Of a stretch of 64,000 bases of DNA, positions 14,753 through 15,677 are shown piece after piece. The stretch's first letter is position 1; every line of letters begins with the position of its first letter. The notes beneath the pieces are model-generated. The model was not told where the DNA came from. It saw nothing but the letters and a program-made list of their open reading frames with translations, and did not search any database. The position numbers and the translations under genes are program-made. The stretch is taken from assembly GCF_036345015.1 (NCBI RefSeq), contig NZ_CP084098.1, positions 1,625,326 through 1,689,325 of the forward strand, read 5' to 3'. The stretch is from Cyanobacterium sp. Dongsha4. GTDB lineage: Bacteria > Cyanobacteriota > Cyanobacteriia > Cyanobacteriales > Cyanobacteriaceae.

Positions 14753-14996
14753 AAGATTTTATTTTAGTTGCCAATTAACAATTATTTCATTATCTATGAT
14801 TAATCGGCAATTAGAATTAACGATTCAATAATTATTTATCTCCTAATATTTGACCTTGCTGATTAAATTACTTAAAGATGCTTGTGAAGTTCTTTTAATT
14901 ATATATTTCCTTTAATTGTATATATGATGAATAGAAAATATTTGTGGCAATATATCAATTTCTCTCTTATTACGAAAGCTATAATAAAACCACATT

Positions 14997-15027
14997 CCCC
15001 CCTTATTAAGGGGGGTTAGGGGGGATC
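14997..15027 (+). repeat. G/C-tract palindromic repeat, left copy at the DUF559 gene
   Basis: C6 (14997-15002), a TTATTAA core, G6 (15010-15015), TTA, G6 and ATC. The first part folds into an 8-bp hairpin. The whole unit is the near-exact reverse complement of the repeat at 15395-15424, so the two form an inverted pair around the DUF559 gene. Confidence 0.85.
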
Positions 15028-15041
15028 AAAACAAGAATTTT

Positions 15042-15449
15042 ATGACAGATTTTTATTTACCATACAACAAACAATTAATTCCCAGAGCAAAAGAATTAAG
15101 GCAAAATATGACCATGCCTGAGAAAAAACGATGATCAGAATATTTGCGTCATAACTCTTTCAAATTCATGAAACAACGCTTGATCAATGACTTTATAGTA
15201 GATTTTTACTGTGCAAAAGCAAAACTTGTCATCGAAATTGATGGAGATACCCATTTTACAAATGACGGTATCGCTTATGATCTAACTAGAACTGCCATCT
15301 TAGAGAGTTATGGATTAAAAGTAATTCGGTTTACTAATCATGACGTGATTCACTCTTTTGAAGGTGTTTGTCAAGCTATAGAAAAAGCTCTTGAGATCCC
15401 CCCACCCCCCCTTAATAAGGGGGGCTCAATACAGGCTTTTAGAAAATAG
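15042..15449 (+). pseudogene. DUF559 endonuclease-like gene with an in-frame TGA
   Basis: ATG at 15042 opens a frame that reads to codon 30 (..RQNMTMPEKKR), meets TGA at 15132-15134 and then continues in the same frame (SEYLRHNSFKFMKQ..) to the stop at 15449. DUF559 proteins (Vsr-like endonuclease fold) normally have a Trp at this point (EKxLWxxLR), so a TGG-to-TGA change explains the break. The downstream part keeps the core IVDFYCAKAKLVIEIDGDTH and the helix after it. Re-initiation at TTG 15144 would give 101 residues lacking the N-terminal helix. The last codons (PPPPLNKGG) are encoded by the flanking repeat. It is a recent pseudogene, a readthrough case or a sequence error. Confidence 0.8.
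15395..15424 (-). repeat. G/C-tract palindromic repeat, right copy at the DUF559 gene
   Basis: GATC, C6, A, C7, TTAATAA and G6. It is inverted relative to 14997-15027 and differs from it only around the spacer between the C tracts. It overlaps the 3' coding end of the DUF559 gene. Confidence 0.85.
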
Positions 15450-15677
15450 TTGAACTTAGTAATTGACCCACCAAAAAATTCCAGGCAATAACTTCATCTT
15501 TACAAAAACTTTATATAGCAATTTAAGTAGTATTACGGTTATGTAAATCTCTTTTTTCGGGCAATATGGTAGTTAGAGATCCTATGTGTAAATAATCAAT
15601 ACAAAACCAGATTTATAAGTAATATTTTATATCCATAACTTAACCTTAAACTGCTAGAGAAAAAAGAGGAAATTGCC

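Follow-up and report, generated by a model that had tools for sequence, protein, structure and literature searches.

DUF559 genes in many bacterial phyla are accompanied by G/C-tract palindromes, and this association is held with much higher confidence than the mechanism offered for it. The favored mechanism, which we consider somewhat better than an even bet, is that DUF559 is the homing-type nuclease of a palindrome-bounded mobile unit. A broader claim strikes us as evenly poised: DUF559 may supply the missing mobilizing enzymes of the G/C-tract triplex palindromes (BoxC/PIT/TM and their kin) of hundreds of genomes. Enzyme and palindrome would then make up a bacteria-wide class of selfish unit, able to home into its palindrome and to reside in frame in essential proteins without an intein or intron. 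The ycjD gene of Escherichia coli K-12 would be a laboratory example. That DUF559 is a nuclease family is not new. Its link to palindromes appears to be new, and a search of the open-access literature found nothing that connects DUF559/YcjD to palindromic repeats.

If true, the proposal would give BoxC-class palindromic repeats an enzyme and a mechanism, explain why unrelated proteins contain repeat-encoded peptides such as PPLNKGG or PSPQPSPxGEG, and reveal housekeeping genes as hosts of in-frame selfish nuclease domains. The question could be put to a direct test in E. coli K-12, which has both ycjD and BoxC copies.

Window locus

The window is the whole stretch of 64,000 nucleotides of Cyanobacterium sp. 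Dongsha4 DNA that was analyzed. Its DUF559 gene lies between an inverted pair of a palindrome that is dispersed in the genome (Table 1). Both palindrome cores match CCCCCCTTATTAAGGGGGG, the right one exactly on the opposite strand (15406-15424). When the window is shuffled, 0.01 matches arise on average versus the 2 observed cores, which rejects a chance origin of the pair. The preliminary description of the flanks as near-perfect inverted copies is confirmed. With their G-rich tails included, the flanks are near-identical polar units that point inward, TTCCCCCCTTATTAAGGGGGGTTAGGGGGGAT and GCCCCCCTTATTAAGGGGGGGTGGGGGGATC, and both tails face the gene. By its sequence layout of C arm, loop, G arm, short spacer, and third G tract, the unit would be classed with the PIT/TM repeats.

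The preliminary description gave 14997-15424 for gene and flanks together and had the right copy supplying the last codons. The gene begins at an ATG 14 nt past the left unit and is broken by a TGA that relatives such as L059 read through. The right unit codes for ..EIPPPPLNKGGS.. close to the C-terminus of the ORF. After the TGA, the ORF matches PF04480 with E=2.3e-23 and 82.6 bits, against a curated cut-off of 20.6.

Table 1. Features of the DUF559 locus in the window
Feature	Position	Strand	Description
Left polar palindromic unit	14997..15027	+	Hairpin CCCCCCTTATTAAGGGGGG at 14997-15015, spacer TTA, second G tract and GATC to 15027; hairpin plus tail, CCCCCCTTATTAAGGGGGG-TTAGGGGGGATC
DUF559 (PF04480) nuclease gene	15042..15449	+	Broken by in-frame TGA at 15132-15134; family match at 15081-15392
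Right polar palindromic unit	15395..15424	-	Inverted copy of the left unit; also encodes IPPPPLNKGG near the C-terminus

No transposase lies between the window palindromes. Three stretches folded as single-stranded DNA give a hairpin with an asymmetric tail, at energies 1.0-1.7 SD below those of shuffles. An RNA element was set aside as a reading, the sole Rfam match at 14800-15600 being RsaF at E=0.3, below gathering.

In the genomes searched, the genus is otherwise represented by the sister genome G001 alone, with 98% identity along one flank of the locus and 95% along the opposite flank. There, DUF559 retains its 3' half together with the right palindrome, and a two-gene insertion (L300 2521-4276), which we take to be of IS200/IS605 type, stands in place of the 5' half and the left palindrome. 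The window copy is an inherited, decaying, broken remnant, because it carries the TGA and the locus is common to, and decayed in, G001; under the proposed mechanism it would be a dead copy of a palindrome-bounded unit. No empty site was readable in four genomes of one other genus, where the alignment is limited to pdhA and the upstream edge.

The repeat in the Dongsha4 genome

The window palindrome is repeated across the genome, so the pair at DUF559 is no isolated case: 35 copies occur at ≤1 mismatch (24 exact), versus 0 for the reversed, backwards-read pattern. A chance origin of the copy number is rejected by the same comparison. A one-sided G tail ending in GATC is common to most of 15 aligned copies; L014 and L009 deviate. 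Twenty-one of the 35 palindromes fall inside long open frames and code for PPLIRGE- or PPLNKGG-like peptides; this count used loci of 1.3 kb with frames open at both ends, so these are not full ORFs.

Three DUF559 matches are found in this genome, the one in the window included. The second is broken at its 5' side, and its 3' end runs into a window-type palindrome. The third is in frame within a methylase-like protein, between SPPLKEGLG and SPPFKGGLGG, which resemble the peptides encoded by the repeat. A separate observation is a frame-broken, putative transposase-like gene between a palindrome and the second DUF559 copy (L037 2700-3640, - strand).

Sixteen solitary palindromes were compared with G001, and orthologous flanks were located for 12. 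Judged by eye, the palindrome is kept at six (L005, L006, L007, L015, L020, L021) and degenerate at one (L025). The other five have no palindrome, have a fragment, or are not alignable across (L008, L009, L010, L016, L017). These 12 sites are diverged, and none has a precise insertion, a clean empty site, or a target-site duplication.

Palindromes at DUF559 genes across bacteria

G/C hairpins were counted within 200 nt of the DUF559 domain. The strict rule misses stems below 70% G+C, e.g., L053, and a relaxed rule was hence used as well. The cyanobacterial sample comprises 30 relatives (18 with DUF559) and 291 genomes of the phylum (195 with DUF559). It yielded 119 distinct loci, mostly the best-scoring matches from longer lists, which is a bias; the duplicate loci L155 and L156 were dropped. 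A second scan, a search of genome contigs, yielded 79 loci that are the best of at least 577 confirmed stretches. The titles of these 79 are mostly Clostridia or Oscillospiraceae, with others from Desulfuromonadales, Bacteroidota, Alpha- and Gammaproteobacteria, Leptospiraceae, candidate phyla, and more Cyanobacteria. The two sets share no domain sequence, and some Cyanobacteria occur in both.

Under the relaxed rule, a hairpin occurs near the domain at 181 of the 198 loci, and at 119 of them the domain is flanked left and right, versus 26/285 and 3/285 of the neighboring ORFs (≥90 aa, >1 kb from DUF559, same loci). The respective counts are 111/119 and 86/119 for the cyanobacterial loci and 70/79 and 33/79 for the second scan. 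Random positions reach 4.4% (cyanobacterial set) and 8.1% (second scan) for either side and 0.08% and 0.26% for both. The strict rule gives 101/119 either side and 61/119 both sides for the cyanobacterial loci, and 46/79 and 19/79 for the second scan. Among the 53 cyanobacterial loci with long flanks, strict counts are 48 and 30, versus 1.8% and 0% for random pseudo-domains >1.2 kb off. There are 2.9-8.6 hairpins per kb in the first 100 nt around the domain, against 0.02-0.07 per kb at distances over 1.5 kb. Chance as the source of the association is rejected by the random positions, pseudo-domains, and neighboring ORFs.

Paired flanking in relatives, which the preliminary description had proposed to score, is borne out. 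It had also named DUF559 genes without palindromes as evidence against a link. Such genes exist (17 of the 198 loci have no hairpin even by the relaxed rule, and at least four of them are strong DUF559 matches), but the enrichment at DUF559 is far over that at random positions. The eight hairpin-less cyanobacterial loci are four weak or partial matches (L055, L062, L063, L064) and four strong ones (L052, L117, L128, L135).

Ends matched to the enzyme

Palindrome sequences vary between loci, and the left and right copies of one locus match as inverted repeats. Across the 80 loci bracketed by the strict rule, similarity between the left and the inverted right hairpin of a locus is 0.82, versus 0.44 when partners are shuffled (highest value in 200 shuffles, 0.486). 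The inverted match is better at 59 of these loci and the direct match at 17, with 4 ties; 18 pairs are exact. Among the direct pairs is that of the MAG 'bacterium isolate B30_G16' (L162), which has the window palindrome on both sides of a DUF559 56% identical to that of the window.

Palindrome similarity also follows protein identity (r=0.457, 147 loci), in line with the earlier proposal that gene and repeat moved or evolved together. The correlation is r=0.195 (p=0.002) for pairs below 60% identity and weak below 50% (r=0.034, p=0.05). Part of this co-variation is expected from common descent alone.

The type-A palindrome CCCCTCCTCGCTTGCGGGGAGGGG is present in 18 of the 291 genomes and DUF559-A (E≤1e-30) in 10. 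All ten DUF559-A genomes carry the palindrome, at 2-53 copies each. It also occurs in 8 of the 281 genomes without DUF559-A, all from the same family, at 1-10 copies. Within this family (31 genomes sampled), the palindrome is found in 10/10 genomes with DUF559-A versus 8/21 without (p=0.001), and copy number is higher with the gene even when two flanking copies per gene are subtracted (p=0.0008); both tests assume that genomes are independent, and in two of the ten the flanks account for all copies or all but one. Most of the solitary type-A units examined repeat the polar unit found at the gene ends.

For the window-type palindrome, 83 sampled genomes of the order were compared, and its genome-level link to DUF559 is weak. 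It is present in 35/65 genomes with any DUF559 match, some of these matches being weak, versus 4/18 without (p=0.03). At ≥5 copies, the difference is not significant (18/65 versus 3/18, p=0.54). Window-type palindromes are abundant in G015 (32 copies) and G111 (23 copies), genomes in which no DUF559 match was found.

Tail polarity differs between free-standing and embedded genes. Where tails could be called on both sides, they point inward at 37 and outward at 1 of the free-standing genes (160 in total), and outward at 15 and inward at 4 of the embedded genes (38 in total). A homing-like unit does not explain this opposite polarity.

Relatives of the DUF559-A query are chiefly chromosomal, because few plasmid and phage records match the domain by tblastn: 24 of 72,556 plasmid records (E≤1e-8), a number that includes some entire chromosomes labeled as plasmids, and 2 of 50,697 phage records (E≤1e-5). 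A phage or plasmid gene is thus rejected as a reading. On related Picosynechococcus plasmids (L351, L352), a DUF559 gene is found amid many triplex-type repeats, directly before a DUF1156 gene.

DUF559 inside host proteins

At 38 of the 119 cyanobacterial loci, an open frame of >230 aa surrounds the domain; one of these, L062, is a divergent match. Pfam annotation of 18 long DUF559 ORFs places the domain within or joined to MmeI, Type_ISP, Eco57I, DUF1156, PrmA, M14 peptidase, radical SAM, UvrD, and PriA, and within or joined to poly(A) polymerase in an alphaproteobacterium. One of the 18, L131, has no host domain by Pfam. There are no splicing domains among the Pfam matches of these ORFs at E≤0.001, which rules out an intein in the ORFs scanned.

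Filled and empty alleles are found in two host genes of gut bacteria, which we take to be Vampirovibrionia. The kinase of one genus is read as IspE from Pfam GHMP_kinases_N in homologous ORFs, and its site is readable in 14 of 16 genomes. Six genomes are empty, with 111-126 nt between two conserved motifs, and six are filled, with 540-573 nt that hold an in-frame DUF559 and its palindromes. In L248, a different DUF559 (53% identical) with a different palindrome occupies the same place. A shorter sequence of 144 nt in L239 is read as a scar.

The second gene is PriA of another genus (L256-L281), readable in 26 of 29 genomes. Four carry DUF559, with 501-606 nt between motifs. The site is short in 13 genomes (63-108 nt), among them L279 with an apparent leftover left tail. 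Nine genomes have other linkers of 141-363 nt, several of them ARGQEDKPVSD-like, as if the PriA linker were a general landing place. The comparison with empty sites proposed in the preliminary description is therefore answered in part: filled and empty alleles exist in the kinase and PriA, but none is clean for the solitary palindromes or the window locus.

The nuclease domain

The DUF559 domain is, as judged from substitution rates, under purifying selection, because dN/dS medians are 0.10-0.19 in five sets; single pairs reach 0.59, and the window clade has 0.31 from two pairs only. Residues R10, T14, E17, W21, D44, E55, D57, G58, and H61 are invariant in both alignments.

An AlphaFold2 model of L157 (pLDDT 90) has 3hrl and 3r3p as its nearest folds. 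The former is a gonococcal endonuclease-like protein, and the latter is the I-Bth0305I homing-endonuclease domain (TM 0.70-0.77). The sequence profile agrees with the fold search, matching 3r3p at E=5.7e-6. The modeled domain thus has a predicted PD-(D/E)XK-type fold close to a homing endonuclease and not HUH. The fold search also returned a mitochondrial ribosome protein chain, 6z1p, at E=1.6e-4. Among weaker PDB profile matches, PvuRts1I reaches E=0.013; enterotoxin B chains (E 0.39-1.2) and others were taken as chance.

Earlier work bears on the family. YcjD is listed in a 2005 paper among known PD-(D/E)XK members, with Vsr as a match (PMC1189080). A 2022 genome paper already assigns one DUF559 gene to the EDxHD homing family (PMC9403480). 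Repeated transposase/DUF559 segments are reported to be recombination hotspots in a 2025 evolution experiment (PMC12308824).

ycjD and the BoxC repeats of E. coli

BoxC has been known from E. coli since the 1990s. PMC4666352 describes such repeats in >260 genomes, with no mover found there. It gives 23 TM motifs in the E. coli chromosome and the consensus CCCTCNCCCN3-6GGGNGAGGGN3GGGNGAGGG, notes that no mobility function has ever turned up in their vicinity, and ties TM/BoxC sites to general genome instability.

The stretch of E. coli K-12 MG1655 examined contains, at L354 2206-2761, the DUF559 gene ycjD (b1289) next to a match to the published TM consensus, which lies 167 nt past the ycjD stop. 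A degenerate unit covers the stop, and the 5' side is without a unit. By our own post hoc arithmetic, chance would put a TM motif within this distance of one given gene in about 0.4% of cases.

A place covering at least 80% of the ycjD-region query is found in 3,360 of 5,426 E. coli genomes. Four strains without ycjD have an efflux operon in its place in the sapF-fabI gap (see PMC12817139). They were rejected as simple empty sites since the operon occupies the place.

Proposed mechanism and alternatives

DUF559 and its two inverted polar palindromes would form a homing-like mobile unit, and the scattered solitary palindromes would be its unoccupied target sites and non-autonomous copies. The nuclease would recognize and cut the palindromic unit, possibly in an extruded hairpin or triplex form. 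Repair of the break would then write the unit into the broken site, either together with the gene or on its own, and an insertion that left the reading frame open could persist within a protein. The account draws on the recurrence of the unit and its mostly inverted ends, on the co-variation of those ends with the enzyme, and on the solitary units dispersed elsewhere. It also draws on the two host genes with filled and empty alleles at fixed sites, on the several proteins that carry the domain in frame, on purifying selection, and on a fold like that of a homing endonuclease. It would have DUF559 itself cut, copy, and mobilize the repeat. Points against it are the lack of a clean empty site with a target-site duplication at the solitary palindromes, the DUF559-less genomes rich in the repeat, the nonsignificant genome-level association at ≥5 copies, the share of co-variation expected from descent and its weakness below 50% identity, the 17/198 hairpin-less loci, the 17/80 pairs that match better as direct copies, the polarity contrast, and the one-sided good unit at ycjD.

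An unlikely but possible alternative resembles REP/RAYT: a structure-specific DUF559 would process single-stranded hairpins and move palindromes as transposon-like ends, with no double-strand-break homing. The gene between an inverted pair of a polar unit that is also scattered singly fits this reading, as does the folding of the unit into a hairpin with an asymmetric tail. However, the hairpin energies are just 1.0-1.7 SD below shuffles, the 12 orthologous sites have no fixed target duplication, and the fold is predicted to be of the PD-(D/E)XK type near a homing endonuclease, not HUH. It is improbable that the palindromes are moved or made by other enzymes, or by replication slippage at triplex-prone tracts, with DUF559 as passive cargo or settling there by recombination. 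G015 and G111, rich in window-type palindromes, are in its favor, and published work adds the general genome instability linked to TM/BoxC sites in E. coli (PMC4666352) and the transposase and DUF559 repeated segments reported as recombination hotspots (PMC12308824). Set against these are the hairpins on both sides of 119/198 DUF559 domains versus 3/285 neighboring ORFs and the co-variation of palindrome and enzyme. Moreover, among the 291 genomes the type-A palindrome is limited to the taxonomic family in which DUF559-A occurs, and it reaches higher copy numbers in genomes with the gene.

Restriction-modification-type genes adjoin or contain several DUF559 copies, as would be expected of a defense or restriction nuclease whose flanking palindromes are regulatory or self-recognition sites. 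We hold this to be highly improbable: DUF559 is also found within the housekeeping proteins PriA, IspE-like kinase, and PrmA, 21/35 palindromes of the Dongsha4 genome lie inside long open frames, and the mobile-unit layout would be left unexplained.

Comparison with known systems

The proposed homing-like unit is filed under neither REP/RAYT nor homing endonucleases but as a new kind, because it has no HUH enzyme and, in the 18 ORFs scanned, no splicing domains, and homing is itself putative.

Rickettsia palindromic elements are carried in frame inside protein genes, and 21/35 palindromes here lie in open frames, a likeness in description. We know of no partner enzyme for the Rickettsia elements.

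RAYT is an HUH Y1 transposase. REP/RAYT (TnpA-REP) systems share with the DUF559 unit a gene bracketed by a short polar palindrome in inverted orientation, single copies of which are dispersed over the genome. In contrast, DUF559 is predicted to be of PD-(D/E)XK type, with 3hrl and 3r3p as nearest folds, and there is no HUH Y1 transposase between the repeats. The likening to REP/RAYT with a different enzyme class in the preliminary description was fair. The tail of the DUF559 repeat is a second G tract, whereas the published REP superfamilies are tagged GTAG or CGTC (PMC3733652).

EDxHD homing endonucleases, represented by I-Bth0305I, share the catalytic-domain fold and profile (3r3p) and presence or absence at fixed sites in conserved genes. 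They differ in that the embedded DUF559 domains scanned have no splicing domain around them, the host frame reads through, and the ends are dispersed palindromes.

PIT/TM (BoxC) triplex repeats have the same order of C tract, loop, G tract, short spacer, and second G tract. PMC4666352 reports no mobility function near the E. coli sites, whereas DUF559 units have a nuclease gene attached.
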